Shown: positions 19,606 to 50,596 of the stretch, piece by piece
Layout: each line of letters begins with the position of its first letter
Position numbering within the stretch: the first letter of the stretch is position 1
Assembly (NCBI RefSeq): GCF_031180975.1
Contig: NZ_JAPSLI010000005.1
Span: 1-64,000 of the forward strand
Source of the DNA: Microbacterium sp.
Lineage (GTDB): Bacteria > Actinomycetota > Actinomycetes > Actinomycetales > Microbacteriaceae
Direction of reading: 5' to 3'
Length of the DNA stretch: 64,000 nucleotides
Made by a program: the position numbers and the translations under genes
The notes under the pieces: model-generated
The model's input: only the letters and a program-made list of their open reading frames with translations
Told to the model about the DNA's origin: nothing
Database searches by the model: none

Positions 19606-20339
19606 GTTCCGAGACGGCGATCAGGCCGAGCATCATCATCGACGGCGTGCACAAGAAGTTCACGCTCAACCACGCGTTCTCGCTCAAGGACACGGTCGTC
19701 TCGTGGATCCGTGGTCGCAAGCTGACGAGCAGCTTCGAGGCGCTAAAGGGCATCGATCTCGTGATCGGGGAGGGCGAGTCGGTCGCCATCCTCGGCATGA
19801 ACGGTTCGGGCAAGTCGACGCTCCTCAAGCTGGTCTCCGGGGTGATGGAACCCGATGGCGGGCAGGTGCTGACACGCGGGCGAGTGGCGGGGCTGATCGA
19901 GGTCGGTGCGGGCTTCCACCCCGAGCTTTCGGGCCGGGAGAACGTGTTCCTGAATGCGGCGATCCTCGGGATGAAGCGGCCGGAGATCGAAGCGCGATAT
20001 GACGAGATCGTGGCCTTCAGCGAGATCGAGGAGTTCATCGACCAGGAGGTCAAGCACTACTCGTCCGGCATGTTCATGCGTCTCGCATTCTCCGTCGCGA
20101 TCCACGTCGAACTCGACGTGCTGCTCGTCGACGAGATCCTGTCCGTGGGTGACGCGCCCTTCCGGGAGAAATGTCGGCTCAAGTTCGAGGAGCTGATCGC
20201 GGCAGGGAAGACCCTCGTCGTCGTCAGCCACGACATGGAGATGGTGCGTGAGCTCTGCACCCGAGGTGTGGTGATCAGCAAGGGCGAGGTCGTCTACGAC
20301 GGCGAGATCGAGGGCGCCATCGCGTTGGTGGACGCGTGA
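19602..20339 (+). CDS. wzt: ABC polysaccharide exporter ATPase (Wzt, system 1)
   Basis: A 245-residue nucleotide-binding protein with Walker A GMNGSGKST near residue 68, the LIEVGAGFHPELSGREN segment, the signature HYSSGMFMRLAFS and Walker B VLLVDEILSVGD. It pairs with the preceding permease (ATGA overlap, AAGGAAGG ribosome site). It ends soon after the ATPase fold, so it lacks the extra carbohydrate-binding domain of long Wzt proteins that read the chain end. This matches the TagH-short/Rv3781-like type. Its stop overlaps the start of the next membrane protein, so three genes are coupled. Confidence 0.94.
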   Translation: MSSETAIRPSIIIDGVHKKFTLNHAFSLKDTVVSWIRGRKLTSSFEALKGIDLVIGEGESVAILGMNGSGKSTLLKLVSGVMEPDGGQVLTRGRVAGLIEVGAGFHPELSGRENVFLNAAILGMKRPEIEARYDEIVAFSEIEEFIDQEVKHYSSGMFMRLAFSVAIHVELDVLLVDEILSVGDAPFREKCRLKFEELIAAGKTLVVVSHDMEMVRELCTRGVVISKGEVVYDGEIEGAIALVDA

Positions 20340-23313: not shown

Positions 23314-23325
23314 GGTTCCATTGTG
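23314..23325 (-). promoter_or_regulatory. -10 box CACAAT, leaderless start at 23313
   Basis: Minus-strand CACAAT (23325-23320), 6-nt gap, ATG 23313. The divergent GT4 gene starts 51 bp away. Confidence 0.5.
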
Positions 23326-23364
23326 GCAGGTGTCCACACCAGGGATATGCGAGACAGGGGCGGT

Positions 23365-24593: not shown

Positions 24594-25205
24594 GTGACCC
24601 AGACGCCACACGTGCGGATCGTGGATTCCGCCGATGTCTCGCCCGAAGCATCCATCGGAGCCGGTTCGTCCATCTGGCATCTCGCGCAGGTGCGTGAGGG
24701 GGTGCGGATGGGGGAGAACTGCATCGTCGGCCGCGGGGCCTATATCGGCACCGGCGTGGAGATGGGTGACAACTGCAAGGTCCAGAACTACGCATTGGTG
24801 TACGAGCCCGCGAAGCTCGCTGACGGCGTGTTCATCGGCCCGGCCGTGGTGCTCACCAATGACACTTACCCGCGCGCCATCAACGCCGACGGGACGTTGA
24901 AGAGCGCACACGACTGGGAGCCGGTCGGAGTGACCATCGAGCGCGGCGCCGCCATCGGGGCGCGCGCCACCTGCGTCGCCCCGGTGACGATCGGCGCCTG
25001 GGCGACCGTCGCCGCTGGCGCCGTGGTCGTCAAGGACGTGCCTCCGTACGCGCTGGTCGCAGGCGTTCCTGCGCGACGCCTGGGCTGGGTCGGTGAGGCC
25101 GGCGTGCCGCTGACCGCCGGCGAGGACGACAACACCTGGGTGTGCCCGGCCACCGGTGCGCGCTACATCGAGACTGACGGAACACTGACCAAGGAGATCG
25201 TGTGA
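24594..25205 (+). CDS. Hexapeptide-repeat N-acetyltransferase (WbpD type)
   Basis: A 203-residue left-handed beta-helix acyltransferase. Hexapeptide turns are visible throughout, for example GAGSSIWHLAQVREGVRMGE, GRGAYIGTGVEMGDNCKVQN and APVTIGAWATVAAGAVVVKD. WbpD acetylates the 3-amino group of UDP-2-acetamido-3-amino-glucuronic acid. That role is supported because an aminotransferase and an oxidoreductase of the same pathway follow in coupled order. GTG 24594 is chosen for its GAGGAG site; GTG of the next gene overlaps the stop. The C-terminal YIETDGTL tail is shared with WlbB/WbpD proteins as I recall them. Confidence 0.85.
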   Translation: MTQTPHVRIVDSADVSPEASIGAGSSIWHLAQVREGVRMGENCIVGRGAYIGTGVEMGDNCKVQNYALVYEPAKLADGVFIGPAVVLTNDTYPRAINADGTLKSAHDWEPVGVTIERGAAIGARATCVAPVTIGAWATVAAGAVVVKDVPPYALVAGVPARRLGWVGEAGVPLTAGEDDNTWVCPATGARYIETDGTLTKEIV

Positions 25206-26299
25206 GCGAGTTCATTCCCCCGGCGAGGCCGATCATCGGAGATGAGGAGCGCGAGGCTGTGGACCGGGTGCTGCGCAGCGGCATGGTCGCGCAGGGCCCT
25301 GAGGTGGCTGCGTTCGAGGAGGAGTTCTCGGCGCATTTCGTGCCCGGGCGTGCGTCCGTGGCGGTGAACTCCGGCACGGCGGGTCTGCATCTGGGTCTGC
25401 TGGCTGCGGGTGTGGGTGCGGGGGATGAGGTCATCGTGCCGTCGTTCACGTTCGCCGCGACGGGCAACTCGGTGGCGTTGACGGGTGGGACGCCGGTGTT
25501 CGTGGACATCGAGCCGGAGACGTTCACGCTGGATCCGGAGGCGGTGGCCGCGGCGATCACGCCGAAGACGAAGGGCATCCTGCCGGTGCACCTGTACGGT
25601 CACCCGGCGCGGATGCGGGAGCTCGAGAAGCTGGCCGCCGATCGAGGTGTTGCACTGTACGAGGACGCCGCCCAGGCGCACGGCGCGTCGCTGGATGGGC
25701 GTCCGGTGGGGTCGTTCGGCGAGTTCGCGATGTTCAGCCTGTATCCGACGAAGAACATGACCAGTGGTGAGGGCGGCATGGTCACCACCGCTACGGAGGA
25801 CATCGCCCGTCGGGTGAAGCTGCTGCGCAACCAGGGCATGGAGCGGCAGTATGAGAACGAGGTGGTCGGGTTCAACGCCCGCATGACCGACATCCACGCC
25901 GCGATCGGTCGCGTGCAGTTGACCAAGGTCGACGGGTGGACGAAGACGCGTCAGCAGAACGCGGCGTTCCTCGACCAGAACCTGCAGGGTGTTGTCGTCC
26001 CGCCGGTCGCCGAGGGTGCGGTGCACGTGTATCACCAGTACACGATCCGTGTGGTGGATGACCGGAACGGGTTCGTGAAGGCGCTCAAGGAGGAGCACAA
26101 CGTCGGCTCGGGCGTGTACTACCCGATCCCGAACCACCGCCTGCCGTCGCTGGCCCCGTACGCGCCGGGTCTGGACCTGCCGGAGACGGAGCGCGCCGCC
26201 CGCGAGGTGGTGTCCCTTCCGGTGCACCCCTCGCTGACACAGGCGGACCTGGACCGCATCGTCACCGCGGTGAACGCGGTTGCGAAGGCGGGCGCCTGA
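25202..26299 (+). CDS. DegT/DnrJ/EryC1 sugar aminotransferase (WbpE type)
   Basis: A 365-residue PLP enzyme that places an amino group on a nucleotide-bound keto sugar. Seen: SGTAGLHLGL (PLP phosphate site) near residue 57, PSFTFAATGNS near 80, YEDAAQAHGA near 153, the Schiff-base Lys184 in SLYPTKNMTSGEGG, and FNARMTDIHAAIG near 225. In WbpE-type enzymes the substrate is UDP-3-keto-GlcNAcA. Flanking wbpD- and wbpB-type genes point to that reaction here. It is coupled at both ends (GTGA, then 1-nt overlap). Third codon positions are unusually rich in G and T over much of the gene. Confidence 0.9.
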   Translation: MSEFIPPARPIIGDEEREAVDRVLRSGMVAQGPEVAAFEEEFSAHFVPGRASVAVNSGTAGLHLGLLAAGVGAGDEVIVPSFTFAATGNSVALTGGTPVFVDIEPETFTLDPEAVAAAITPKTKGILPVHLYGHPARMRELEKLAADRGVALYEDAAQAHGASLDGRPVGSFGEFAMFSLYPTKNMTSGEGGMVTTATEDIARRVKLLRNQGMERQYENEVVGFNARMTDIHAAIGRVQLTKVDGWTKTRQQNAAFLDQNLQGVVVPPVAEGAVHVYHQYTIRVVDDRNGFVKALKEEHNVGSGVYYPIPNHRLPSLAPYAPGLDLPETERAAREVVSLPVHPSLTQADLDRIVTAVNAVAKAGA

Positions 26300-27291
26300 T
26301 GGTGCTGCGCGCGGGTCTGCTCGGTGTCGGCATGATGGGCCGGCACCACGCGCGGGTGCTGCGGGAGATCGACGGGGTCGAGCTGGTCGCGATCGCCGAC
26401 CCGGGCGGGGATCCGCACGGGGTGGCTGGGGATCTGGAGATCCTGCCCGACATCGACGCGCTGATCGGTGTGGGGATCGATGTCGCGGTCGTCGCGGTGC
26501 CGACCCGGTTCCACGAGGATGCGGCGCTCAAGCTCGCCGCGGCCGGGGTGCACACCCTGGTGGAGAAGCCGATCGCGCACACCCTGGATGCGGGCCGACG
26601 CATGGTCGACGCGTTCGCCGCTGCCGGGCTGGTGGGTGCGGTGGGGCACATCGAACGGTTCAACCCGGCGTTGCAGGAGCTGCGGCGGCGGATCGAGGCG
26701 GGCGAGCTCGGTGCGGTGTATCAGGTCGTGACCCGCCGGCAGGGCCCGTTCCCGTCGCGGATCGCGGACGTCGGGGTCGCGAAGGACCTCGCCTCGCACG
26801 ACGTGGACCTGACGGCGTGGGTGGTGCAGTCCCCGTATGAGCGGGTGTTCGCGCAGACCGCGTTCAAGTCCGGGCGTGAGCATGAGGACATGATCGTGAT
26901 CACCGGGCGCACCGAGTCCGGGGTGATCGTGAACAACATCGTGAACTGGCTCTCGCCGATGAAGGAGCGCGTGACGGTCGTCACGGGGGAGAAGGGCGCG
27001 TTCGTCGCCGACACCGCCACCGGCGACCTGACCTTCTACGCCAACGGCACCATCCCCTTGGAGTGGGAATCGGTGTCCTCGTTCCGTGGCGTGTCCGAGG
27101 GGGATGTCACCCGGTACGCGTTCGCGAAACGCGAACCGCTGCGCGTGGAGCACGAAGCCTTCCGCGACGCCGTCCTCGGCCACACCACCGACGTCGTCAC
27201 CATGGAACAGGGCCAACGCACCCTCGAAGTCGTCGAAGCAGCACTCCAATCCGCACGAAACGGGGAGTCCGTCGTCCTTCCCGCCTCGTGA
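26299..27291 (+). CDS. Gfo/Idh/MocA oxidoreductase (WbpB type)
   Basis: A 330-residue NAD(P)-dependent dehydrogenase. The Rossmann motif GLLGVGMMGRHHARVL opens the protein, VEKPIAHT near residue 95 is the family lysine motif, and SHDVDLTAWV near 168 holds the His-Asp pair. WbpB oxidises C3 of UDP-N-acetylglucosaminuronate before transamination. The order acetyltransferase, aminotransferase, oxidoreductase in one coupled set supports this. The codon style changes in the last 170 bp from G/T-ending to C-ending. GTG of the next gene overlaps its stop. Confidence 0.87.
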   Translation: MVLRAGLLGVGMMGRHHARVLREIDGVELVAIADPGGDPHGVAGDLEILPDIDALIGVGIDVAVVAVPTRFHEDAALKLAAAGVHTLVEKPIAHTLDAGRRMVDAFAAAGLVGAVGHIERFNPALQELRRRIEAGELGAVYQVVTRRQGPFPSRIADVGVAKDLASHDVDLTAWVVQSPYERVFAQTAFKSGREHEDMIVITGRTESGVIVNNIVNWLSPMKERVTVVTGEKGAFVADTATGDLTFYANGTIPLEWESVSSFRGVSEGDVTRYAFAKREPLRVEHEAFRDAVLGHTTDVVTMEQGQRTLEVVEAALQSARNGESVVLPAS

Positions 27292-28478
27292 CCGACCGAG
27301 GGGGGCACACGGTCAGGGCCCTCATACGGCGCATAGCCGCAGGGCTGCCGGACCCTGTGGCCGAACGAGTCCTTCCCTGGAAACGAGCCGCGTTCAACAC
27401 TGCGGGCGTAGCCACACCACAGGTCGCGCGCACGCGTCTCTTCATCGGTCCGGTGAACTCCGCAGGCCAGGGATTCGCGTGGGCTCGCGCCGCTGAGACA
27501 CTAGGTGACGTCGCCGCGACCAGCTTCATGTACCGCGACCGGCGCGATGTTTTCGGCTATCCCGCTGATCAGGTAGTCGACACGGTCTACTTCCGCACCA
27601 ACTCGCGGTGGCGGGCAGCCCAACGTCGCGCAGTGCGGCGACGGTACTCGCACGTGATCGTGGAGTCGGGCCGCCAATTGTTCGGCGTCGAGGAATCGAC
27701 GGTCGACCAAGTGCGTGAACTCCGCGCCTACGGGGTCAATGTCGCGTTGCTCTGGCACGGGAGCGATATCCGGGTACCGAGCCGCCATGCGCGCCGCGAG
27801 CCTGATTCGCCGTTCGCGCGGGGTTTCGCGGACACTTCTCGGCTTGAAGAGATCGCGCTCCGCAACCAGGAGCTGATGCGGGAGCTGCAGTTACCGACAT
27901 TCGTGTCGACTCCTGACCTGCTCATCGACGTGCCAGGCGCGACGTGGCTACCGGTAGTCGTCGACGCCGATAGCTGGTCAACGGCGGGCAGCGCTGCACC
28001 GATGCAGCGGCCGCGGCCGGTTGTCGTTCACGCGCCGAGCAATGCTGGGCTGAAGGGCAGCGATCGCATCACGACGGTGATGCGGAGACTTCACGATGAT
28101 GGTCTTGTCGAGTACCGAGAAGCTCGCGGGATCCCGGCCTCAGAGATGAAGGCGTTCTATGGAGACGCAGACATCGTGCTGGACCAGTTCTCACTCGGAA
28201 TCTACGGTGTGGCCGCCTGTGAGGCGATGGCCGCGGGACGTGTGGTGATAAGCCATGTGGCCGCCGAAGTGCGCGACGCCGTGCACAGACTCACAGGTGA
28301 CGCTCTGCCGGTGCTGCAAGCTCGTGCCGATGAACTCGAAGCCGTGCTTCGTCGCGTCCTCTCCGAGCCGGCGGCGGCTCGGGCTGCAGCGGACGCTGGA
28401 CGCTCGTTCGTACGGCAGCACCACAACGGTGCACGATCGGCCGAAGCGCTGCGTCCCTTTCTGAGTGCAGCGTCCTGA
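27288..28478 (+). CDS. Glycosyltransferase, GT4-like
   Basis: A 396-residue GT-B-like protein. Features: FIGPVNSAGQGFAWARAAE near residue 45, LLWHGSDIRVPSRH near 150, VVHAPSNAGLKGSDRI near 245 and the C-terminal DQFSLGIYGVAACEAMAAG, which resembles the GT4 nucleotide-binding segment. It lacks the usual EGFG, so it is a divergent member. GTG 27288 overlaps the previous stop, making it the fourth coupled gene of the operon. Sugar specificity is unknown. It could use the diacetamido-uronate made by its neighbours. Confidence 0.75.
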   Translation: MTDRGGHTVRALIRRIAAGLPDPVAERVLPWKRAAFNTAGVATPQVARTRLFIGPVNSAGQGFAWARAAETLGDVAATSFMYRDRRDVFGYPADQVVDTVYFRTNSRWRAAQRRAVRRRYSHVIVESGRQLFGVEESTVDQVRELRAYGVNVALLWHGSDIRVPSRHARREPDSPFARGFADTSRLEEIALRNQELMRELQLPTFVSTPDLLIDVPGATWLPVVVDADSWSTAGSAAPMQRPRPVVVHAPSNAGLKGSDRITTVMRRLHDDGLVEYREARGIPASEMKAFYGDADIVLDQFSLGIYGVAACEAMAAGRVVISHVAAEVRDAVHRLTGDALPVLQARADELEAVLRRVLSEPAAARAAADAGRSFVRQHHNGARSAEALRPFLSAAS

Positions 28479-28545
28479 GCGAGTCCCACAGCGTCGCATG
28501 GGAGACTGACTGTGTGGCAAACGACGTGAAAGCGGAGAAGACTGC

Positions 28546-30330
28546 ATGAAGCTGGTCGGCAGCACCTTCCGCGAGTTGATGACCTGGCTCCCGGCGGACG
28601 CGCGCTCCTACCTCGTCAAGTACGTGGCAGTGTCGTGTCTGCTCGCAGCGCTCGATATCGCGGCGATCATGCTCCTTGCGCTCAGCCTCGCGCCCATGAT
28701 CGCGCGCGCTCCGATCAACCTCCCCGTTGTCGGCGCAATCGGCGCAGACGCGTACGTCTGGCTCATCGGCGCTGTCGCTTTTCTCATCCTGATCAAGTCC
28801 GCACTGGCACTCGCGCAGCAGTGGTTTGCGACGCGGCGGTTCGCGAGTTTCGAGCTGGAGATCGGACGACAGCTGTTCGACAGCTACATCAAGGCGCCCT
28901 GGACCTACCGACTGGGGAGGAACACTGCACAGATCGTGCGCATCGCCGATGTCGGCATCGCCAACACCATCAGCGGATTCCTTCTCCCGATCGTCCAACT
29001 GCCCTCGCTCGTCGTCGGTTTTGTCCTCATCCTCATGGTCCTGGTGATCGCTCAGCCGGTCACGGCGCTGATAACCGTCTTGTATCTCGGCGCCATCATG
29101 GCGCTGTTGTATTGGGTGGTCGCGAGTCGTTCTGTCCAGGCGGGACGCGTCTCCCGGGACTACTCATTCAAGGTCGCAGCGTTGATGACCGAGATGATGC
29201 AGGCGCTGAAGGAAATCACCCTGCGCAACAAGACCGGAGAGGTCGCCGCCGTCGTTCAGTACAACCGGACGTTCAGCACGCGGGCCAGAGCGAACATGAA
29301 CTTCCTCGGCTCGCTTCCCTCGTTCGTGCTCAACTCTGCGCTCGTCGGTGGGTTCGTTCTCGTCGGCGGCCTCGGTTACTTCATCGGCGGGATGGAGCAG
29401 GCGCTCGCCTCTGTAGCGCTCTTCGCCGTAGCTGGTTTCCGACTCGTTCCTTCCCTCACTGGGTTTCAGTCCATCGTCACCACGACCTCTGCCAACGTGC
29501 CGCACGTGCAGGCGGTCATCTTCGACATCAAGTCGTCTCAGCTCTACATCTCTGTGGCCGAGAACCTCGGCAAAGATCCGATCGAAGGCACGCCGCGCGT
29601 TCTCGAATTGCAGGGGGTCTCCTTCGGCTACCCCGGGCACGAGGACACTCCTGCCGTGCACGACATCGACCTGCGGATCCCCATGGGGAGTTCCGTTGCA
29701 CTGGTGGGATCATCCGGCGCCGGGAAGTCGACCCTCGTGGACATCCTCCTCGGACTGCTGGTCCCGCAGCAGGGCACGATCCGCCTGGACGGCCGAGACC
29801 TGACCGACGTACTCGCCGCCTGGCGCACCAGGGTCGGGTATGTGCCGCAGGATGTCTCGCTGTTCGACGGCACAGTTGCGCAGAACGTCGCCCTCGCGTG
29901 GGATGATCACGAGATCGACTTCGACCGTGTGCGTACCTCGCTCGAGCGGGCACAGCTCTGGGATGTCGTGGAGAAGCGCGACGGTCAGATGCGGGGACGG
30001 ATCGGCGAGCGGGGTCTGTCGCTCTCCGGCGGTCAGCGCCAACGCCTGGGAATCGCGCGCGCTCTGTACAGCGATCCCCTGGTCTTGGTGCTGGACGAGG
30101 CAACCAGTGCGCTCGACACCAAGACAGAATCCAAGGTGACCGAGGCGATCCGCAGCCTCAAGGGGCAGGTCACCATCGTGTCCGTGGCACACCGGCTGTC
30201 GACGATCCGCGACAGCGACCTGGTGTGCTTCATGCAGGACGGCACGATCGCCGACCGGGGTACATTCGACGAACTCGTAGCCCGCGTTCCGAACTTCGCG
30301 GAGCAGGCGCAGCTCGCGGGGCTGGCGTGA
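28546..30330 (+). CDS. PglK-like ABC flippase (fused permease and ATPase)
   Basis: A 594-residue half-transporter. The N-terminal 330 residues hold six membrane helices and the C-terminal 250 residues the ATPase: Walker A LVGSSGAGKST near residue 384, Q-loop YVPQDVSLFD near 430, signature LSLSGGQRQRLG near 490, and Walker B LVLVLDEATSALD. The layout and its place among glycosyltransferases suggest a homodimer that flips a lipid-linked oligosaccharide, as PglK does in Campylobacter. A peptide or drug export role is less likely in this setting. GGAGAAG precedes ATG 28546. The 67-bp gap upstream shows no terminator, so it may be read from the preceding operon. Confidence 0.86.
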   Translation: MKLVGSTFRELMTWLPADARSYLVKYVAVSCLLAALDIAAIMLLALSLAPMIARAPINLPVVGAIGADAYVWLIGAVAFLILIKSALALAQQWFATRRFASFELEIGRQLFDSYIKAPWTYRLGRNTAQIVRIADVGIANTISGFLLPIVQLPSLVVGFVLILMVLVIAQPVTALITVLYLGAIMALLYWVVASRSVQAGRVSRDYSFKVAALMTEMMQALKEITLRNKTGEVAAVVQYNRTFSTRARANMNFLGSLPSFVLNSALVGGFVLVGGLGYFIGGMEQALASVALFAVAGFRLVPSLTGFQSIVTTTSANVPHVQAVIFDIKSSQLYISVAENLGKDPIEGTPRVLELQGVSFGYPGHEDTPAVHDIDLRIPMGSSVALVGSSGAGKSTLVDILLGLLVPQQGTIRLDGRDLTDVLAAWRTRVGYVPQDVSLFDGTVAQNVALAWDDHEIDFDRVRTSLERAQLWDVVEKRDGQMRGRIGERGLSLSGGQRQRLGIARALYSDPLVLVLDEATSALDTKTESKVTEAIRSLKGQVTIVSVAHRLSTIRDSDLVCFMQDGTIADRGTFDELVARVPNFAEQAQLAGLA

Positions 30331-31415
30331 CCCGGCCGTTCGCCGAGATCGTCATCGCCTGTCATGACGAGGCGCGACCGCTCGAACGTGCCGTGGCGTC
30401 GCTGCTGCAGGACGCGGACATCAGGGATCGAGTTCGTGTCACCGTCGTGGCGCACGGCATCGATCCTGCGCCCCTGGCGGGGCGGCTCGCGAACATCGAT
30501 GGCGATGTTCGCGTCGTCGGGTTCACGGACGGCATCCGCAGCGCAGCAGGGCCGTTCAATCACGGCCTCGAGCTGGTCGAAGGTGAGTACTGCGGTGTGA
30601 TGGGCTCCGACGACTTCCTGGAACCTGGTGTGATGAGCCGGTGGATCGCCCATGTCGAACGTGAACGGCCGGACGCGGCGATCGCGCAGATACGTCTGCA
30701 GAGCCAGACCGTGATGCCGAACCCACTGGTCAGACTGGGCAGACGCCGGAAGCTCGACGCGGCGAAGGACAGACTCTTCTATCGCACGGCCCCGCTCGGT
30801 CTGCTCCGCACCGCGAGACTGAGGGAACTCGGCCTGCGCATGGTCGAAGGCGTGCGCGTCGGTGAGGACTTCGATTTCGGCATTCGCCTCTGGGCGCACG
30901 CCGGGCGCGTAGATTTTCTCGCTGGCATGGGCAGCTACGTGATCGGCGAGGATGCCGGCGAGCGCACCACCGGGGCCATGCTTACCATGGCCGAGCGGTT
31001 TGCCCCGATCGACCGCCTGTTCGACGACGGCGTGTTCTCGAGTCTCAACGCCGCGCATCGGCAGGCGCTGGTCGTGAAACTGATTCGCGTCAGCATCGTC
31101 GGAACCGCTCAGGCAGTCGCTGAGCAGGCGCCGTCCGACGACGACGTGCGGACCATCGCCGACCTTCTGCGTCGGTTGCTGGCGGAGGCGCCGCGCGCTC
31201 TTCGACCGTTCAATCGCCAGGACCGCCGCGTGCTCGACGGTCTGCTCGACGAACCGACATCGCGACGCATGGTCGCCGACGTACGCCGCTCACGGCAGTC
31301 CGGGCGGCTCGAACGCTGGCTGACACCGGACCTTGTGCACAGCTTTGCGCGTGAGTCCACGCTGAGACGCTACATGCTGTACTTCTGCCGCCGAGACCGA
31401 GGGAGTAACGCGTGA
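30327..31415 (+). CDS. Glycosyltransferase family 2
   Basis: A 362-residue GT-A protein. It opens with EIVIACHDEARPLERAVASL. The acidic donor site is MGSDDFLEPG near residue 92, and a VGEDFDFGIRLWAHAG segment near 183 carries the ED acceptor motif. FTDGIRSAAGPFNHGLEL and DRLFYRTAPLG are shared nearly word for word with the C-terminal half of the fusion protein at 36106, so the two are paralogues. No membrane helix. GTG 30327 overlaps the flippase stop. The C-terminal 120 residues are helical and of unknown role. Confidence 0.82.
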   Translation: MTRPFAEIVIACHDEARPLERAVASLLQDADIRDRVRVTVVAHGIDPAPLAGRLANIDGDVRVVGFTDGIRSAAGPFNHGLELVEGEYCGVMGSDDFLEPGVMSRWIAHVERERPDAAIAQIRLQSQTVMPNPLVRLGRRRKLDAAKDRLFYRTAPLGLLRTARLRELGLRMVEGVRVGEDFDFGIRLWAHAGRVDFLAGMGSYVIGEDAGERTTGAMLTMAERFAPIDRLFDDGVFSSLNAAHRQALVVKLIRVSIVGTAQAVAEQAPSDDDVRTIADLLRRLLAEAPRALRPFNRQDRRVLDGLLDEPTSRRMVADVRRSRQSGRLERWLTPDLVHSFARESTLRRYMLYFCRRDRGSNA

Positions 31416-36046: not shown

Positions 36047-36093
36047 GCACCGCGGGTATCCACCGACGTCGAAGTGCTCTGCGCCGCGGCTGA

Positions 36094-36105
36094 TAGCGTC
36101 GGAGC
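36094..36105 (+). promoter_or_regulatory. -10 box TAGCGT, leaderless start at 36106
   Basis: TAGCGT (36094-36099), 6-nt gap, GTG 36106. Confidence 0.45.
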
Positions 36106-38247
36106 GTGAAGGTGCTCGTGGTGACGACCTGGCTGCCGACCCGTGAACGGCCCGAGGTCGGCTCGTTCGTTCTGCGCGACATCGAGATGCTCGCACGCGA
36201 TCACGAGGTCCATGTGCTGCACCTGTCCGCAGGAGGCACCACCCTCCCCATCGACGCCGAGACCGCATCACTGACCACCCTGTCCATGTCGCCAGCGAAT
36301 CCGTTCAGCATCGCCAGGGCTGCACGGGCCATTTCTGAATACGCCGCCGGCGCCGACCTCGTGCATTCGATGGCAGCGTCGGCGTTGTTGCCCTTTCGAA
36401 TGTTCCGTTCGGAGCGGCCGTGGGTGCACACGGAACACTGGTCCGCGCTGCTCGCCCCGTCCACGGTCGGCCCGATCGCACGCGCGGCGATACCCCTCAC
36501 CGCGCGACTGCTCGACCGTCCCGATATCGTGATCGCTGTTGGGAACGGGCTGGCTTCCGCCATCAAGCAGCGACGCTCGGGCCCCACGGTCGTCATCCCC
36601 AACGCCGTCGACCGTTCGGATGACATACGGGAACGACCGCTCGGGCCGACGATTCGCCTCGTTGCCGTCGGAGGACTCATCGCGCGGAAGGGGCCGGACG
36701 TCGCGATCGGAACCATCGCCGAACTGCGCGCCAGGGGAGTGAACGCCACCCTGGACTGGGTCGGGGAAGGACCGTTGCGCGGAGAGCTCGTCTCACTCGC
36801 CGAGCGCCTCGGCGTTCGCGACCATGTGCGGCTTCGAGGCGCCTGTCCACCGCGCGACATCCCGGCGATCCTCGCCGAGGCGGACGTGTTCCTGTTGCCC
36901 ACCACGATGGAGACCTTCGGCGTCGCCATAGCGGAGGCTCTCGTCGCCGGCCGGCCGGTCGTCGTCGGCGGCGCCGGGGAGCAGGCTTCGTTCGTGACCG
37001 AGCCCGACGGCGTGCTCGTGCATGAGCAGACCCCGGCGGCGTACGCGGACGGCGTGCAGCGAGTCCTCGCGATGAACGCCGGTCGCCCCGCCGCTGAGAT
37101 CGCCGCCCGGGCAGCATCGACGTTCGACCCCGAAGCGCGTCGTGCCGCCTATTCCGACGTGTACCATCGCGCGGCGGCGTTGAGCGCCGGACATCGCAGT
37201 GAGCGGGACGTGGACGTGATCGTAGCCGTTCACGATGCCCGCAGACGGGTCGACAGGGCAGTGCACTCCGCCCTCACGTCCACATCCGTCTCGCGTGTGA
37301 TCGTCGTCTGCCATGATGTCGATCCGCAACGGATCGATGAGTCCCTCGCAGTTGACGACCCACGGGTCGAGCTGGTCGGGTTCCACGACGGCATCCGCAG
37401 CCCCGCAGGGCCGTTCAACCACGGTCTCGACATCGCGACAGGGCGGTTCGTGGCGATTCTCGGCTCCGATGACGAACTGACACCGGGTGCTCTGGACGCT
37501 TGGCGCCGAACCGCCGAGCGTGACGCGGCGGACGTTGTCCTGGCACCTCTTCGTCACGCATCCGGCGCTCGAGTTCCCACTCCACCGACATGGCGACGCC
37601 GTCGGCTGCACGGTGGTCGTGACAGGCTCGCGTACCGCACAGCGCCTCTCGGCATCGTGGCGCGGGAGCGGTTGGGGGGTCTCCGGCTGACCGAGAGGTT
37701 GGCAACCGGCGAAGATCTGGCGTTCACCGCACGGCTCTGGTTCGGCGACTTCCGTCTGAGTAGACACGCCGGGGCAGACGACTATGTGATCCACGACGGC
37801 GAGGGCAGGGTCACTTTCACCACCCGGCCGCTGAATGAGGAACTGAGGGCGGTGGAGCTGCTCATCCGCGATGCCTGGGTAAGGGTGCTGTCGGAGGCGG
37901 ACCGCACGGCGATCGCGACCAAACTATGGCGGGTCAACGTCTTCGGCGCCGTTCACTACCGGGCCGGCGCGTGGACGGACTCGGACCGCGCCTGGCTGGC
38001 GGGTCTTGTCACCGAGTTGCATGATTTCGCGCCGTCGGCGACCGGCCGGCTGTCTCGTGCTGATGCGGCACTCGTGGCTGCACTCCGGGACCGCTCTTTG
38101 CCCGATGCCGAAGTCGATCGTCGTTCCCGGCGACGTCGGCGGTTCGCCTCGACTGCCGCATTGATCCCCGATCGTGCCGCGCTGCTGCTCGCAAGGGATG
38201 CACCGTTGCGGTTCAGCGCAGCGACGTGGTGGGCGGGTCGCCGCTGA
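36106..38247 (+). CDS. GT4-GT2 fusion glycosyltransferase
   Basis: A 713-residue two-domain enzyme. Residues 1-365 form a GT4 with TTWLPTRERPEVGSFVLRD, VAVGGLIARKGPDVAI, VGEGPLRGEL and PTTMETFGVAIAEALVAGRP. Residues about 366-713 form a GT2 beginning DVDVIVAVHDARRRVDRAV, with donor site GSDDELTPG and acceptor motif TGEDLAFTARLWF. The GT2 half is a paralogue of the free-standing enzyme at 30327. The stop is far downstream with no frame break, so the fusion looks genuine. It probably adds two successive sugars, one retaining and one inverting. It is transcribed separately from the coupled operon upstream. Confidence 0.85.
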   Translation: MKVLVVTTWLPTRERPEVGSFVLRDIEMLARDHEVHVLHLSAGGTTLPIDAETASLTTLSMSPANPFSIARAARAISEYAAGADLVHSMAASALLPFRMFRSERPWVHTEHWSALLAPSTVGPIARAAIPLTARLLDRPDIVIAVGNGLASAIKQRRSGPTVVIPNAVDRSDDIRERPLGPTIRLVAVGGLIARKGPDVAIGTIAELRARGVNATLDWVGEGPLRGELVSLAERLGVRDHVRLRGACPPRDIPAILAEADVFLLPTTMETFGVAIAEALVAGRPVVVGGAGEQASFVTEPDGVLVHEQTPAAYADGVQRVLAMNAGRPAAEIAARAASTFDPEARRAAYSDVYHRAAALSAGHRSERDVDVIVAVHDARRRVDRAVHSALTSTSVSRVIVVCHDVDPQRIDESLAVDDPRVELVGFHDGIRSPAGPFNHGLDIATGRFVAILGSDDELTPGALDAWRRTAERDAADVVLAPLRHASGARVPTPPTWRRRRLHGGRDRLAYRTAPLGIVARERLGGLRLTERLATGEDLAFTARLWFGDFRLSRHAGADDYVIHDGEGRVTFTTRPLNEELRAVELLIRDAWVRVLSEADRTAIATKLWRVNVFGAVHYRAGAWTDSDRAWLAGLVTELHDFAPSATGRLSRADAALVAALRDRSLPDAEVDRRSRRRRRFASTAALIPDRAALLLARDAPLRFSAATWWAGRR

Positions 38248-38270
38248 TCCCCGACCGCCTGGTGTGTGAA

Positions 38271-38284
38271 TAGACTGGCTTCTC
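38271..38284 (+). promoter_or_regulatory. -10 box TAGACT before 2-epimerase gene
   Basis: TAGACT (38271-38276), 8-nt gap, GTG 38285. The same hexamer precedes the dehydrogenase gene at 41467. Confidence 0.45.
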
Positions 38285-39352
38285 GTGAAGATCGTCAGCG
38301 TCGTAGGCGCACGCCCGCAGTTCGTGAAACTCGCTCCCATCCACAAGGCTGCGGTCGGAGCGGGCATCGATCATGTGATCGTCCACACGGGCCAGCACTA
38401 CGATCCCATGCTCTCGGACGTCTTCTTCGAGGACCTCGGCATCGGCACCCCTCACGTGCACCTCGGTGTGGGGAGCGGGTCGCATGGTGTTCAGACGGGG
38501 GCGATGCTCGCGGCCTTGGACGGCGTCTTCGACGAGCACCAGCCCGACTGGGTGCTCGTCTACGGTGACACCAACTCCACGGTGGCAGCAGCGCTCAGCG
38601 CCGTGAAGATGCACATCCCCGTGGCTCACCTCGAAGCTGGGCTGCGCAGCTTCAACCGGCGGATGCCGGAGGAGCACAACCGGGTGATGACTGATCACGC
38701 CGCCGATCTGCTGCTCGCGCCGACGCAGGTGGCGGTAGACCACCTGGCTGCGGAAGGGCTCGCAGAGCGCACCGTGCTCGTCGGTGATGTGATGACCGAC
38801 GTGCTCTTCGAAGTGCGTGACCAGGTCGGTTCCGCCCCATCGGTACTGCTTGAGGAGCTCGGCCTTTCCCGGGGCGGGTACTACTTGGCGACGATCCACC
38901 GGGCTGAGAATACTGACGACCCTGCCCGGCTCGCGGATATCGCTGTTGCACTGGCCGAGCTCGACCGACCGGTTGTGCTTCTCGCGCATCCCCGTGTCGT
39001 CGCCAAGGCAGCCGCGCACGGCATTCAGCTGAGTCAGGGATCCCTTATCGCGCACGCTCCGCTGGCATACCCCGATCTCATCAGCGCTGCACTCTCCAGC
39101 GCCGGCGTGGTCACCGACTCGGGTGGCCTTCAGAAGGAGGCTTTCCTGCTACGGGTGCCGTGCACCACGGTGCGAACAGAGACGGAATGGGTCGAGACTG
39201 TCGAGCTCGGATGGAACGTGCTCGCGAACAATGCCGCGGAGATCACTGCTGCTGTCTCCCGCCCCGCGCCTGCGCAGACTGACGCTGCTCCGTATGGGGA
39301 CGGCCACGCCGCCGAGCGCGTCGTTCAGGTACTCTCCGCCCGGCAGCGCTGA
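38285..39352 (+). CDS. wecB: Non-hydrolysing UDP-GlcNAc 2-epimerase (WecB/WbpI family)
   Basis: A 355-residue GT-B-fold epimerase that inverts C2 of a UDP-N-acetyl sugar. Family marks: VGARPQFVKLAP near residue 7, IVHTGQHYDPMLSD near 33, VYGDTNSTVAAAL near 94, VAHLEAGLRSF near 114, ATIHRAENTDD near 200 and DSGGLQKEAF near 279. It could make UDP-ManNAc (WecB role), or act on the diacetamido-glucuronate to give the manno form (WbpI role). Both fit the wbp-type genes and the dehydrogenase nearby. The start is GTG 38285, with homology beginning immediately. Convergent with the CWB2-epimerase gene. Confidence 0.92.
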   Translation: MKIVSVVGARPQFVKLAPIHKAAVGAGIDHVIVHTGQHYDPMLSDVFFEDLGIGTPHVHLGVGSGSHGVQTGAMLAALDGVFDEHQPDWVLVYGDTNSTVAAALSAVKMHIPVAHLEAGLRSFNRRMPEEHNRVMTDHAADLLLAPTQVAVDHLAAEGLAERTVLVGDVMTDVLFEVRDQVGSAPSVLLEELGLSRGGYYLATIHRAENTDDPARLADIAVALAELDRPVVLLAHPRVVAKAAAHGIQLSQGSLIAHAPLAYPDLISAALSSAGVVTDSGGLQKEAFLLRVPCTTVRTETEWVETVELGWNVLANNAAEITAAVSRPAPAQTDAAPYGDGHAAERVVQVLSARQR

Positions 39353-39376
39353 GCGGAGTCGACCTCGCGACCTGCC

Positions 39377-41338
39377 TTACTGAGGCGGGTCGACCACCTG
39401 TTCGTCCGGAGCCGGCGAGGTGGCCCCCGGGGAAGCCATGAATGTGCGCGACTCGGTGGGGGTCCAGTCCTGCCGGAGGATCGTCGCCCAGTCTGTGAAC
39501 CTGCGATCGCCGGTCAGCCGAGCCAGGGTGTCCAGCTGCCAAGAGTGGATCACGTGATACGTCGGATTCTGCCAGACCCGCTGTCGGCAGTCGTCCTGCC
39601 AGCAGTAGTACGAGACGCCGCCGGGCACGCGAATTTTCGGCATGACCTCGAGAACCGTCGTCGCTGCGCCGTCAAGATAAGCGATCGCCTCGGGATCGCC
39701 GGTGAGACGCCAGTAGTCGTACACCCCGAACAGGGCGAACAGGTGACCGTTCAGCACCCTGAGCGGGGGGAGATCGCCGGCGTACTCCTCGAACACGAGC
39801 AGTCCCTGATCGGTCATCGTCGCCCACGGCTCAGACGAACTGCGCGGCTGTTTCAGACTGAGCCAAGTGTGACCCGCGCCGGCCTTCCAGCGCTCGTCAC
39901 CGGTCTCCTCATACAGTCGCACGAACAACGAGAGGGCCTCGCCCTGGGCCATCGCGGACCACCATGGTGCGTGCAGGGTCTTTCCCGTGTAGGTCCAGTC
40001 GAACAGGTACGGAAAGTACCAGGCAGAGTCCCGTTCGGTGTGTATCTGCTCAAGCCGCTCCGCATGGCGGATGGCTCGCTCCAACCAGATCTGGTCGCCG
40101 GTCGATTGATACTCAAGGAGCGCTGAAATGCCGTATTGGGCGTATGCGACCGGATGGTCCACGCGGCTCCCGTTCGGACCCATGTTGAGGATGCGCAGTC
40201 CGGTCGAATCGAGATTCTGAGCCGCGTCGTGCACGTTCACCGGGGCATGGTCGGAGTATGGGGCGTCGACCGTGCTGGAGAAGTCGAGCCCGGACGTCTT
40301 CCACGGAGCGTTCACCGGAACCGGATCTCCGCACCCGACGTTGTTCATGGCGGGAGCGCTCACGACCGCGGTGCCCCCTGTGGCGATCCGCGGAAGGTCG
40401 GCATATTCGGCGATCACCCGCTGCGGGATCGTGGGCACACAACCAGCGCGGGTGAGGTAAAGCGCGCCATCGGACTGAGCGGCCAGCGCCGCCGCGGCTA
40501 ACGCGTCGGGAAAGTTCTCCCCGCTGGCGAGGAATATCCGTGCGGGACGACCGGTGCTCGATGCGTGCATGAGATCAACGGCAGTTTCATAACGCGAAGC
40601 GCCGCCATGTCGGCGAACGTCGTAGCCGCGCGTGCGGAGTTGTTGTTCGATCTGAATGCTGATGGATCCGTGGCCGCCGGCGAGGAGGATCTGGCGCGCT
40701 CCCAGCCGGTCTATAGCAGTCGACGTCGCACCGTCGAGCGCCAGCAGCTTCCCATCGATCAGCAGGGTAGGTGCACGCAGACGCCCCGCTGCTGCCCCGG
40801 CGACGAGCCCGTCAGCGTAGCCTCGTCCCGTAGCCAGGACGACGGCGGAGGATTCAGCGAAGAAGCGGGCGGCGAGCCTGCGCGACGTGTCGTACCGGTC
40901 GACGCCCGCGAGCCGTTCGGTCGCCGGAACAAGCGCCTTGAGCCTACTGACTACGCTCTCCGAGACGACCGAGGGGCCGCCGAGGACGAAAACGCGTTCG
41001 GGCTTGAGGCGGCGGATCTCCATTGCGACCACAGCCGGGAGCGCGTCGCGCGGTGTGAGGAGCACGGGACCCCCGACGACAGCCGCCGAGGAGGTGGCGG
41101 AGAGTGCATCCGGGTAATCCGCCCCGCCTGCGACGAACACCGCAGCCGGAGCTGGGTCGAACTGCTGTGAGACCGCGACGGCGGTCTCATAACGGTCGGA
41201 GCCCCATAGGCGCTCGACGGTGGGGGCCGCCGACGCGACTCTGGACGACGCTACCGCGGGCGAGGCGACAGCCATGCCGAATACGAGGATCAGAGGGGTG
41301 ACCGCGCCGGTCGCGCGGCGGAAGAAGCTTCGCCTCAT
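39377..41338 (-). CDS. Cell-wall-anchored D-glucuronyl C5-epimerase-like protein (CWB2 fusion)
   Basis: A 653-residue secreted protein. Signal peptide about 1-37 (RRSFFRRATG then a hydrophobic core). Three CWB2 repeats fill 40-335, opening RLWGSDRYETA, RLAGVDRYDTS and RHGGASRYETA. Residues about 345-635 match the C-terminal glucuronyl C5-epimerase family (heparosan and alginate type): VAYAQYGISALLEYQSTGD, WYFPYLFDWTYTG, WWSAMAQGEALSLFVRLYE, VLNGHLFALFGVYDYWRLTG, and Tyr594/His598 in NPTYHVIHSWQL. Such enzymes turn GlcA into IdoA within a polymer. Start ATG 41338 has GGAG 8 nt upstream and places the signal peptide properly. It is divergent from a UDP-hexuronate-forming dehydrogenase, which supports a uronic-acid polymer substrate. 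Confidence 0.85.
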   Translation of the reverse strand: MRRSFFRRATGAVTPLILVFGMAVASPAVASSRVASAAPTVERLWGSDRYETAVAVSQQFDPAPAAVFVAGGADYPDALSATSSAAVVGGPVLLTPRDALPAVVAMEIRRLKPERVFVLGGPSVVSESVVSRLKALVPATERLAGVDRYDTSRRLAARFFAESSAVVLATGRGYADGLVAGAAAGRLRAPTLLIDGKLLALDGATSTAIDRLGARQILLAGGHGSISIQIEQQLRTRGYDVRRHGGASRYETAVDLMHASSTGRPARIFLASGENFPDALAAAALAAQSDGALYLTRAGCVPTIPQRVIAEYADLPRIATGGTAVVSAPAMNNVGCGDPVPVNAPWKTSGLDFSSTVDAPYSDHAPVNVHDAAQNLDSTGLRILNMGPNGSRVDHPVAYAQYGISALLEYQSTGDQIWLERAIRHAERLEQIHTERDSAWYFPYLFDWTYTGKTLHAPWWSAMAQGEALSLFVRLYEETGDERWKAGAGHTWLSLKQPRSSSEPWATMTDQGLLVFEEYAGDLPPLRVLNGHLFALFGVYDYWRLTGDPEAIAYLDGAATTVLEVMPKIRVPGGVSYYCWQDDCRQRVWQNPTYHVIHSWQLDTLARLTGDRRFTDWATILRQDWTPTESRTFMASPGATSPAPDEQVVDPPQ

Positions 41339-41454
41339 CGGGAACTCCAGGCTTGTCGTGACGAGCCCGGCGCCCCTCACATCCGCCAGAGTAGCGTGAG
41401 AGAGGTCTGAACCACGCCGGCCGAGTCCGGGCGCTGAGGACGAATGAGCGCGGA

Positions 41455-41466
41455 TAGACTCGTCTC
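41455..41466 (+). promoter_or_regulatory. -10 box TAGACT, leaderless start at 41467
   Basis: TAGACT (41455-41460), 6-nt gap, ATG 41467. The divergent gene has a possible -10, TACTCT, on the minus strand at 41393-41388. Confidence 0.55.
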
Positions 41467-42762
41467 ATGCGTATTGCCGTCGTGGCCCTTGGAAAGATCG
41501 GGCTTCCCCTTGCCGTTCAGTTCGCTTCTTCGGGCCATGAGGTCATCGGTGTTGACGTGAACGAGAAGGCGGTGGACACGATCAATGCGGGTCGTGAGCC
41601 GTTCCCGGGTGAGGCGCATCTGCAGGAGCGTCTGGAAGAACTGGTTCCGGCGGGTCGCTTGCGGGCGACGACGGATTACGCGGACGCGATTCCGGGTGCG
41701 GATGCGGTGGTGCTGGTCGCTCCGGTGTTCGTGAACGATGAGACGTGGGAGCCGGATTTCCAGTACATGGATGCGGCGACGCGGTCGCTGGCGGAGCATC
41801 TGACTCCGGGGACTTTGGTGTCGTATGAGACGACGTTGCCGGTGGGCACGACCCGGACCCGGTGGAAGCCGATGCTGGAGGAGGGTTCCGGTCTGGTCGA
41901 GGGCAGGGACTTCTTCCTGGCGTATTCGCCGGAGCGGGTGCTGACCGGGCGGGTGTTCGAGGATCTGCGGAAGTATCCGAAGCTGATCGGTGCGCTCTCG
42001 GAGGAGGGCAACCGTCGTGCGCGGGAGTTCTACGAAGCCGTGCTGCAGTTCGACGAGCGACCGGACCTGCCCCGCCCGAACGGGGTGTGGGATCTGGGGT
42101 CGACCGAGGCGTCGGAGATGGCGAAGCTCGCCGAGACGACGTATCGGGATGTGAACATCGGGTTGGCGAACCAGTTCGGGTTGTTCGCCGCGTCGCACGG
42201 CATCGACGTGTACAAGGTGATCGAGGCGTGCAACTCGCAGCCGTACAGTCACATCCACCGTCCGGGGATCGCGGTGGGCGGGCACTGCATCCCGGTGTAT
42301 CCGCGGCTGTACCTGTCGACCGATCCGGATGCGGACATCGTTCGGGTGGCGCGGCAGTTGAACGCGTCGATGCCGGAGCGTCTGGTGCAGCAGGCCGAGG
42401 GGATCCTGGGCGACCTGACCGGGAGGCGGGCGGTGGTGCTGGGTGCCGCGTACCGCGGGGGTGTGAAGGAGACGGCGTTCTCCGGGGTGTTCCCCACGGT
42501 TGCGGCGCTGAAAGCGCGTGGCGCGGAGGTCGTCGTGCACGACCCGCTGTACACCGATGAGGAGCTGGGCCGGCTCGGGTTCGAACCCTACGCGGTCGGT
42601 GACGCGGCGGAGCTGGCGATCCTGCAGACCGACCACGCCGACTACAAGACCCTCACCCCGGCCGACATCCCCGGCGTGAAGCTCCTCGTCGACGGCCGCA
42701 ACGCCACCGACCCCACCCTCTGGACCGGCACCCCCCGCATCGTCGTCGGCACCGCCAACTGA
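41467..42762 (+). CDS. UDP-sugar 6-dehydrogenase (WecC/WbpA/Ugd family)
   Basis: A 431-residue NAD-dependent enzyme that oxidises C6 of a UDP-hexose to a uronic acid in two steps. Seen: Rossmann motif VVALGKIGLPLAVQFA at 5-20, AYSPERVLTGR near 152, Lys220 in EASEMAKLAETTYRDVNI, and catalytic Cys274 in VGGHCIPVYP. Substrate may be UDP-GlcNAc (WbpA role, feeding the wbp-type genes at 24594-27291), UDP-ManNAc (WecC role, after the epimerase at 38285) or UDP-Glc. Sequence alone does not settle this. Codons are rich in final G/T for most of the gene and shift to final C over the last 200 bp. Confidence 0.92.
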   Translation: MRIAVVALGKIGLPLAVQFASSGHEVIGVDVNEKAVDTINAGREPFPGEAHLQERLEELVPAGRLRATTDYADAIPGADAVVLVAPVFVNDETWEPDFQYMDAATRSLAEHLTPGTLVSYETTLPVGTTRTRWKPMLEEGSGLVEGRDFFLAYSPERVLTGRVFEDLRKYPKLIGALSEEGNRRAREFYEAVLQFDERPDLPRPNGVWDLGSTEASEMAKLAETTYRDVNIGLANQFGLFAASHGIDVYKVIEACNSQPYSHIHRPGIAVGGHCIPVYPRLYLSTDPDADIVRVARQLNASMPERLVQQAEGILGDLTGRRAVVLGAAYRGGVKETAFSGVFPTVAALKARGAEVVVHDPLYTDEELGRLGFEPYAVGDAAELAILQTDHADYKTLTPADIPGVKLLVDGRNATDPTLWTGTPRIVVGTAN

Positions 42763-47174: not shown

Positions 47175-47267
47175 ACTCGTTTCTGTGAGCGGCTCGCAGC
47201 AGCGGGAGACTCCCGCGCCAAACACGCCGTTGTTCGGATCCTATAGGCGAGCTGAGCGGACGCGAGC

Positions 47268-49376: not shown

Positions 49377-50588
<1,212 letters not shown>

Positions 50589-50596
50589 CCGACGCG

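Follow-up and report, generated by a model that had tools for sequence, protein, structure and literature searches.

A scattered gene set predicted to make a UDP-2,3-diacetamido-uronic acid in Microbacterium, and the C5-epimerase gene beside it

The locus and its relatives in other genomes

We analysed a 64,000-nucleotide stretch of Microbacterium sp. DNA (the window), which lies on contig C11 of a 3.23 Mb genome in 17 contigs. Spread over about 18 kb of it are five genes that very probably form a pathway to a UDP-2,3-diacetamido-uronic acid feeding an anionic wall glycopolymer; the reactions, the polymer and its attachment are what we infer from the genes. Those for an acetyltransferase, an aminotransferase and a 3-dehydrogenase (D, E and B below, after wbpD, wbpE and wbpB of Pseudomonas) stand together, D and E overlapping by 4 bases and E and B by 1 base, and those for a 2-epimerase and a 6-dehydrogenase follow 11 and 14 kb downstream. 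The five reading frames, the coupled trio and the scattering of the set had been described in a first-pass annotation made from the DNA letters, and all were found as described, with a clear Pfam, NCBIfam or PDB family match for every frame (Table 1). The gap between the trio and the 2-epimerase gene is filled mostly by glycosyltransferase genes, and a minus-strand gene for a protein with CWB2 repeats and a C5-epimerase domain sits between the 2-epimerase and 6-dehydrogenase genes. The acetyltransferase frame is open from 24450; 24594 is preferred as its start because 24450 falls within the glycosyltransferase gene that precedes it (23323-24546).

The first-pass proposal that these scattered genes form one such pathway draws support from nested co-occurrence in other genomes, operon-like adjacency, the matches of the 2-epimerase and the acetyltransferase, and the nearness of the set to the genes of ribosomal proteins L21 and L27 in one genome. 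Co-occurrence was scored in an order sample (149 genomes from the order to which the window belongs) and in a class sample of 296 genomes, two samples that overlap. Orthologue cut-offs were chosen by eye at the gap in identity; in the order sample they were at least 52% for the WbpB-like 3-dehydrogenase, at least 61% for the 6-dehydrogenase (next best match 41%) and at least 60% for the 2-epimerase (next best 47%). Of the first-look candidates, at most 14, 13 and 11 per genome were scored in the order sample; for the class sample the maxima were 7 and 5. Orthologues of the three enzymes were present in 55, 51 and 43 genomes of the order sample, respectively, one of those of the 2-epimerase being a gene in two pieces (71 and 56% identity). 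They were strictly nested: every one of the 43 genomes with the 2-epimerase held the 6-dehydrogenase, and all 51 with the 6-dehydrogenase held the WbpB-like gene. Likewise, the WbpB-like gene was found in 57/57 class-sample genomes with the 6-dehydrogenase (at least 47% identity), and the 2-epimerase in 41 of these 57; in all, the WbpB-like gene had 60 orthologues of at least 47% in this sample, plus three weaker matches (32-41%). Eight of the 51 and 16 of the 57 genomes with the 6-dehydrogenase lacked a 2-epimerase orthologue, and a distant relative of the 2-epimerase (37-44%) was present in two of the eight (G063 and G133) and two of the 16. The product of that 2-epimerase is therefore not needed by the 6-dehydrogenase. 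The set is unevenly distributed among members of the genus, the 6-dehydrogenase being present in three of eight sampled genomes (G000, G036 and G093; not G065, G079, G107, G348 and G370).

Adjacency was read from 78 loci fetched by the 6-dehydrogenase, 77 of which hold it at 60% identity or more, with no orthologue in L081. Each locus spans up to about 10 kb on either side of the gene, and absence refers to that stretch. In 28 of the 77, the gene directly adjoins D, E or B or the 2-epimerase gene: 14 loci have one of D, E and B no more than 250 bp away on the same strand, and in another 14 the 2-epimerase gene is that close (nine on the opposite strand, five on the same). The order was D-E-B in 20 of the 20 loci holding all three, and seven loci contained all five genes; L057, from M. 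aerolatum NBRC 103071, is an example with the whole set in one locus. Neither the trio nor the 2-epimerase was within reach in 10/78 loci (including L081, and L056 and L060, which are short), so that scattering is common. In G238, an 8 Mb genome, the orthologues of all five window enzymes (59-67% identity) lie within about 24 kb of the genes of Obg, L27 and L21, all confirmed by Pfam.

Table 1. Predicted enzymes of the gene set and the neighbouring C5-epimerase, with positions in the window
Predicted product	Position	Strand	Match
WbpD/WlbB-type UDP-GlcNAc3NA 3-N-acetyltransferase, hexapeptide repeat (D)	24594-25205	+	PDB best match 3mqg, E 2.3e-38
WbpE-type pyridoxal phosphate aminotransferase, DegT family (E)	25202-26299	+	Pfam PF01041, 1.8e-120
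UDP-sugar 3-dehydrogenase, Gfo/Idh/MocA family, WbpB-like role (B)	26299-27291	+	NCBIfam NF040723, 206.9 bits
WbpI-type UDP-GlcNAc3NAcA 2-epimerase, Epimerase_2	38285-39352	+	PDB 8sxv/8sxy, 366 bits
Glucuronyl-type C5-epimerase with CWB2 repeats	39377-41380	-	Pfam C5-epim_C, 2.2e-26, and CWB2
UDP-HexNAc(-derivative) 6-dehydrogenase, WbpA functional counterpart	41467-42762	+	Pfam PF03721/PF00984/PF03720

The five enzymes

In the PDB ranking of the 2-epimerase, the 8sxv/8sxy match was followed by 4neq, the M. jannaschii UDP-GlcNAc (UDP-N-acetylglucosamine) 2-epimerase (248 bits), and by 1f6d, E. coli WecB (111 bits). The enzyme is 49% identical to the WbpI-type enzyme of the Pseudomonas frederiksbergensis wbpA cluster. 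According to the accessible part of PMC10622841, the Thermus thermophilus 2-epimerase acting on UDP-GlcNAc3NAcA (the UDP-2,3-diacetamido-glucuronic acid) fits its bulkier substrate by Trp307 (for Arg), Tyr96 (for His/Gln) and Ala18 (for Leu/Met); UDP-GlcNAc 2-epimerases have a conserved Arg at the position of Trp307, and movement of this Tyr is said to need the smaller residue, Ala. The window enzyme has Trp302 and Tyr93, and so keeps two of the three named residues, and its Gln12 is also as in WbpI. At positions 12, 16, 93 and 302, the four WbpI-type references have Q, A, Y and W, and two of them belong to complete B-D-E-I clusters that also include a 6-dehydrogenase (L084, L086); the corresponding residues of E. 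coli WecB and of the FnlC-like enzyme of this organism are E, M/L, H/L and R. Residue 16 of the window enzyme (codon 38330-38332) is Leu, combined with the WbpI-type Tyr93, and Q12, L16, Y93 and W302 were invariant in 46/46 actinobacterial orthologues from the fetched loci. The first-pass label "WbpI/WecB-type" can accordingly be narrowed: WbpI-type stands, on the best match and on W302, Y93 and Q12, and WecB-type falls, with 111 bits and Trp in place of Arg. A tree of 2-epimerases joined WecB and FnlC on branches longer than 6, with support of 67/73, and was not used as main evidence.

The acetyltransferase, whose closest structure 3mqg we take to be WlbB, is 38.5-44% identical to WbpD of three B-D-E-I clusters (L084, L085 and L086; 42% against P. 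frederiksbergensis). These reference clusters come from P. frederiksbergensis (annotated wbpA), Sulfitobacter (with TviB) and Deinococcus (B-D-E-I). The aminotransferase showed 37-39% identity to their WbpE, and 44% to the enzyme of a haloarchaeal cluster of aminotransferase, 3-dehydrogenase and 6-dehydrogenase genes (E-B-DH). Other DegT enzymes in the PDB (7b0d, 2oga, 3bn1 and 3frk) outscored WbpE for the window aminotransferase.

For the 3-dehydrogenase, the "WbpB-type" label of the first-pass annotation did not hold as a statement of orthology. BLASTP against canonical WbpB gave E values of 0.48, 0.01 and 0.004 over short stretches (L084, L086 and L085), and a profile of the window enzyme scored three canonical WbpB at 0.6, 10.5 and 11.4 bits. 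Its nearest model was NF040723, a UDP-GlcNAc 3-dehydrogenase, with a score below the cut-off of 450 bits; the same model matched the Streptomyces and haloarchaeal relatives at 181 and 226 bits, and canonical WbpB of Pseudomonas (L084) and Sulfitobacter (L086) matched no NCBIfam model at 1e-10. In both PDB match lists 7bvj came first and 3q2k second; we take 3q2k to be WlbA, a UDP-GlcNAcA 3-dehydrogenase, and 7bvj presumably is GnnA, an identity which a look-up did not confirm. A search of E. coli genomes with the Pseudomonas WbpB gene found nothing.

The 6-dehydrogenase is up to 93% identical to Microbacterium counterparts. Outside this group, identity was 39% to a Priestia plasmid enzyme, 37% to a haloarchaeal one, 34% to WecC, 30% to WbpA and 29% to the organism's own Ugd. 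The gene of the Priestia relative adjoins a DegT aminotransferase gene, and the haloarchaeal relative belongs to the E-B-DH cluster. In the tree, the Priestia and haloarchaeal enzymes were the nearest references, then WbpA/TviB, with WecC and Ugd apart; the very long reference branches keep this tree from serving as main evidence. Of the label "WbpA/WecC-type", the WbpA role is retained and WbpA orthology is not, given 30% identity and a clade of its own apart from WbpA/TviB. Assignment by model scores was abandoned, canonical WbpA also scoring best with the UDP-ManNAc (UDP-N-acetylmannosamine) dehydrogenase equivalogs. A grouping with UDP-Glc (UDP-glucose) enzymes, which the first-pass annotation had named as counting against its proposal, was not seen, and a separate Ugd is encoded on contig C13. 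In a Sulfitobacter plasmid (NZ_CP049347.1; L086 2556-11068), a B-D-E-I cluster stands with a 6-dehydrogenase of the TviB family, and enzymes for 6-oxidation may have been recruited repeatedly.

The idea that the genome encodes another WecB/WecC pair was considered and rejected. The other clear dehydrogenase, on C13, is Ugd/TuaD-like, a third PF03721 match, on contig C16, is weak (22.8 bits, below cut-off), and the second 2-epimerase of the genome, also on C13, is CapG-like and lies in an FnlA/WbcJ/CapG-like cluster. This second amino-sugar locus (L083 6295-15079) also contains genes for a LegC-like aminotransferase, a NeuD-type acetyltransferase and a sugar-phosphate transferase; the FnlA-like and WbcJ-like scores are below the NCBIfam cut-offs.

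Taken together, these comparisons indicate that the pathway is Wbp-like in its working, yet it is not a set of Wbp orthologues.

Possible routes, polymer and role of the C5-epimerase

In the proposed route, UDP-GlcNAc would be converted into UDP-GlcNAc3NAcA by oxidation at C6, oxidation at C3, transamination and N-acetylation, and the WbpI-type 2-epimerase would turn this into UDP-ManNAc3NAcA, the mannuronic epimer. Glycosyltransferases and ATP-binding cassette (ABC) exporters encoded nearby would assemble an anionic, teichuronic-acid-like glycopolymer of the wall, and the C5-epimerase most probably works on a polymer outside the cell. The wall of this organism is accordingly predicted to contain a 2,3-diacetamido uronate.

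Several observations weigh against this proposal. Leu16 of the 2-epimerase is of the UDP-GlcNAc kind, the WbpI references having Ala, and NCBIfam names the enzyme wecB, above cut-off. The 3-dehydrogenase is not a WbpB orthologue, and the substrate of the 6-dehydrogenase is left unsettled by its sequence, with 34% identity to WecC, 30% to WbpA and 39% to the Priestia enzyme. Because a Streptomyces plasmid cluster contains a homologous E-B pair and has no such dehydrogenase in its vicinity, B and E alone are no proof of a uronate. Of the three large genomes examined for the L21/L27 neighbourhood, G163 has an L21-like motif beside its set and no 2-epimerase, and G366 has all five genes, with no such motif in a fetched stretch of 40 kb. 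The Streptomyces plasmid cluster (NZ_CP108257.1; L089 8886-11008) has aminotransferase and 3-dehydrogenase homologues of 54-55% identity beside genes for a dioxygenase, a flavin adenine dinucleotide (FAD) oxidase and a carrier protein, with no 6-dehydrogenase in the 21 kb shown around the pair; such pairs may be used outside wall polymers too.

One alternative is two separate pathways, in which a WecB/WecC pair would make UDP-ManNAcA and the D-E-B trio a neutral UDP-GlcNAc3NAc or another 3-acetamido sugar. The name wecB, the UDP-ManNAc dehydrogenase models and structures that are the best matches of the 6-dehydrogenase, and the teichuronic acid of Micrococcus luteus, a polymer of ManNAcA and Glc whose ManNAcA is reported in the available part of PMC3005890, all speak for such a division, as do the full D-E-B trios of three order-sample genomes (G030, G069 and G081) without a 6-dehydrogenase orthologue. 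However, the dehydrogenase model scores do not discriminate, since canonical WbpA scores best with the same models, and the specificity residues of the 2-epimerase are mostly of the WbpI kind, with Trp302 at the C3-hydroxyl position where E. coli WecB has Arg. In a WecB-then-WecC pathway the dehydrogenase depends on the epimerase. The reverse was found: in the 149 genomes the 2-epimerase orthologue never occurs without the 6-dehydrogenase and the WbpB-like gene (43/43), and eight of 51 genomes have the 6-dehydrogenase without a 2-epimerase orthologue. We therefore consider two pathways improbable. In G030, a Ugd-type dehydrogenase gene (63% identical to the organism's own Ugd) lies 2.6 kb from the trio (L092 2287-8948, contig C82).

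A variant of the proposed pathway, with the same product and another order of steps, deserves more weight, and we place it just short of evenly balanced. In this order, of the GnnA or archaeal type, C3 oxidation, amination and acetylation would take place on UDP-GlcNAc, and C6 of the resulting UDP-GlcNAc3NAc would be oxidised afterwards by the 6-dehydrogenase (41467-42762). Since the enzymes that the 3-dehydrogenase resembles act on UDP-GlcNAc, the first oxidation may be that of C3; as the 3- and 6-dehydrogenases are not WbpB and WbpA orthologues, the order of oxidation may differ from that of Wbp. Besides the NF040723 match, which two canonical WbpB lack, the first place of 7bvj, presumably GnnA, among the PDB matches, the haloarchaeal E-B-DH cluster with its related enzymes and the trios without a 6-dehydrogenase orthologue are consistent with C3 going first. 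Against it stand the NF040723 score, which is under the equivalog cut-off, and the second place of 3q2k, our presumed WlbA, in both PDB lists. Moreover, the four order-sample genomes with a WbpB-like gene and no 6-dehydrogenase orthologue (the three above and G135, where only E-B was found within the 20 kb fetched) all carry other UDP-sugar dehydrogenases.

As for the polymer, positions 4898-10523 of the window hold a run of three genes from the CDP-glycerol glycerophosphotransferase family, with one strong match and two weak ones (compare teichoic acid polymerases), and a LytR-CpsA-Psr gene occupies 13780-15231. These would fit attachment to a teichoic-acid-like polymer. An uncharacterised protein of the DUF6541 family (E 1.4e-147) is encoded at 20336-22255, between exporter and glycosyltransferase genes. 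Next to the uronate set, at 49398-55674, lie genes for a UDP-galactopyranose mutase, a GlfT2-like galactofuranosyltransferase and an ABC-2 exporter pair, which form a galactofuran-type module of their own. Four CWB2 proteins are encoded in this one glycan island (16445-18589, 39377-41380, 45726-47225 and 47268-49328), of which one carries the C5-epimerase domain, another fn3 and a third GmrSD_C. In the order sample, CWB2 was present in only two of six genomes of the genus (G000 and G079). The idea that CWB2 proteins bind the polymer was dropped, the WbpB-like gene being present in 9/25 genomes with CWB2 (PF04122) versus 46/124 others (Fisher p = 1).

Alginate and heparosan epimerases carry out C5 epimerisation at the polymer level on plain uronates. 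The catalytic residues of GlcE, which acts on glucuronic acid (GlcA), are E499, Y500, N510, Y560 and Y578 (accessible part of PMC13308652). Alignment to 4pw2 and 6hzz, together with spacing, puts E532, Y533 and N544 of the window C5-epimerase at the first three places; for the last two, spacing is the only guide, and it points to Y592 (or Y591) and Y608. When seven sequences were aligned, E532, N544, Y592 and Y608 were invariant and Y533 was Phe in one (L040); among further rows, L102 and L068 were without the last two Tyr in the alignment and L104 was cut.

The first-pass annotation had suggested the diacetamido sugar as a substrate of this enzyme, and the evidence in favour is circumstantial, consisting of co-occurrence and nearness. 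In the order sample, 11/12 genomes with a C5 domain (C5-positive) have the 6-dehydrogenase, the WbpB-like gene and the 2-epimerase (for the dehydrogenase, Fisher 3e-5). Of the C5-positive genomes in the class sample, 14/17 have the 6-dehydrogenase (1e-8), or 14/16 over the family cut-off (2e-9). These Fisher values ignore common descent; at the genus level the association was 8/11 versus 21/94 (p = 0.0013). Genomes with both C5 and the pathway span nine family codes in the two samples. C5 domains were found in 5/78 of the dehydrogenase loci (two Microbacterium loci, L021 and L026; L038, Gleimia; L040, an Actinomycetaceae metagenome-assembled genome; and L068, Tessaracoccus), versus 0.03-0.25 expected from the rates of C5 per genome. 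Within genomes holding both, C5 lies at most 12 kb from the set in 5/23, namely the window, G066 (where the contig ends within the C5 gene), G108, G238 and G257, with family codes f1, f19, f34 and f35; it adjoins WbpD in G238 and G257. In G012 the distance is 23-28 kb, and in 17/23 C5 is farther off or on another contig. A tie of C5 to the 2-epimerase rather than to the whole pathway was not borne out: among class-sample genomes with the 6-dehydrogenase, the 2-epimerase was present in 12/14 C5-positive versus 29/43 C5-negative ones (p = 0.31).

The competing explanation, which we judge to be evenly poised, is that the C5-epimerase has nothing to do with the diacetamido sugar and acts on GlcA of another polymer, the nearness reflecting the piling up of glycan genes in islands. 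The Ugd-like gene of the genome should make UDP-GlcA available, members of the GlcE type with established activity act on GlcA (PMC13308652, in the part available), the pathway is missing in 3/17 C5-positive genomes of the class sample, and most C5 genes are not close to a set. Co-occurrence and the excess of C5 in the dehydrogenase loci argue in the other direction, as does the distribution of Ugd: a Ugd-type gene (at least 45% identity) was found in 0/10 fetched loci with C5 near the set and in 4/78 dehydrogenase loci, although in G257 one lies about 19 kb from C5, just beyond the fetched stretch. In G037 and G066 (genomes 96 and 92% complete), the pathway's own dehydrogenase was the only match to Ugd at 1e-10. 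On balance, a diacetamido uronate is a plausible candidate target of the C5-epimerase, with the probability leaning somewhat against it. A fuller proposal is more doubtful still, namely that C3 is oxidised before C6 by a GnnA-like enzyme and that CWB2-type C5-epimerases turn D-ManNAc3NAcA or D-GlcNAc3NAcA residues of the polymer into L-GulNAc3NAcA or L-IdoNAc3NAcA (the guluronic and iduronic forms). Among the matches listed in literature searches on C5-epimerase with diacetamido/guluronic or teichuronic/heparosan, none joined the two, which is no proof of absence.

Comparison with known systems

Diacetamido uronates are chiefly familiar as components of Gram-negative O antigens, the sugar having first been found in Pseudomonas. 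The first-pass annotation called the predicted sugar unusual. This does not fit the distribution of the genes, the 6-dehydrogenase and WbpB-like gene occurring together in 57/296 sampled actinomycete genomes, or about a fifth. Across this large group of actinomycetes, the set predicts wall charge and possible receptors for lectins or phages, and in one genome it apparently lies at the place where Streptomyces makes the receptor of umbrella toxins. The customary carrying over of the names wbpA, wbpB and wecB is corrected by it as well. As for the C5-epimerase linked to the set, it may represent a new substrate in its family, of which, according to the available text of PMC13308652, activity has identified a single bacterial member.

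Among the literature matches listed, none dealt with wall uronates of Microbacterium. For M. albopurpureum, the available part of the description gives glucose, galactose, fucose and rhamnose and does not mention "uronic"; the part of a Planobispora paper at hand models a teichuronic acid of GlcA.

The window C5-epimerase shares with GlcE (4pw2, 6hzz) the C5-epim_C domain and residues at the places of E499, Y500, N510, Y560 and Y578. Unlike GlcE, it is fused to CWB2 repeats, and it matches 4pw2 with 34 bits over 97 residues. The Halorientalis litorea plasmid E-B-DH cluster holds a related aminotransferase, 3-dehydrogenase and 6-dehydrogenase together. We know of no product for it, and the archaeal proteins of the NF040723 and haloarchaeal kind are only 33-44% identical to those of the window, with a score under the equivalog cut-off.

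The Thermus thermophilus 2-epimerase (8sxv) shares with the window enzyme the counterparts of Trp, Tyr and Gln14, and differs in having Ala where all 46 window-type orthologues examined have Leu16. The wbpA-B-D-E-I genes of Pseudomonas, which serve O antigen synthesis, carry out the same five steps to the same product, UDP-ManNAc3NAcA. In P. frederiksbergensis, WbpI, WbpD and WbpE are 49, 42 and 38% identical to their window counterparts. In contrast, identity between the window 6-dehydrogenase and WbpA is only 30%, the 3-dehydrogenase has no significant pairwise similarity to WbpB, the genes are scattered, and the host is an actinobacterium.

A close parallel in roles is the utr locus of Streptomyces griseus. 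As reported in the accessible text of PMC13274773, the wall teichoic acid of this species carries a teichuronic-acid-like polymer, →3)GalNAc-α(1→4)-ManNAc3NAcA-β(1→ with GlcNAc3NAcA at the reducing end, as seen by nuclear magnetic resonance (NMR), and S. antibioticus has a GlcNAc3NAcA oligomer. The roles assigned there are dehydrogenase (utrD), aminotransferase/oxidase (utrA/utrB), acetyltransferase (utrJ) and 2-epimerase (utrH); ribosomal L21 and L27 nearby are the anchors of the locus, and other epimerases in utr-type loci vary (PMC13274773). None of five terms related to C5-epimerases occurs in the available main text. All five roles of UtrA, B, D, H and J are present in the window, and from position near L21/L27 in G238 we infer that the two sets are probably orthologous. 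Unlike utr of S. griseus, the window genes are scattered over 18 kb among other glycosyltransferase genes, with a CWB2-type C5-epimerase gene between them. The sets without a 2-epimerase in sampled genomes may be compared with the GlcNAc3NAcA oligomer of S. antibioticus. The gene set of the window thus joins a kind already known, with utr of S. griseus as its precedent, and with two oxidation enzymes that differ from those of Wbp.

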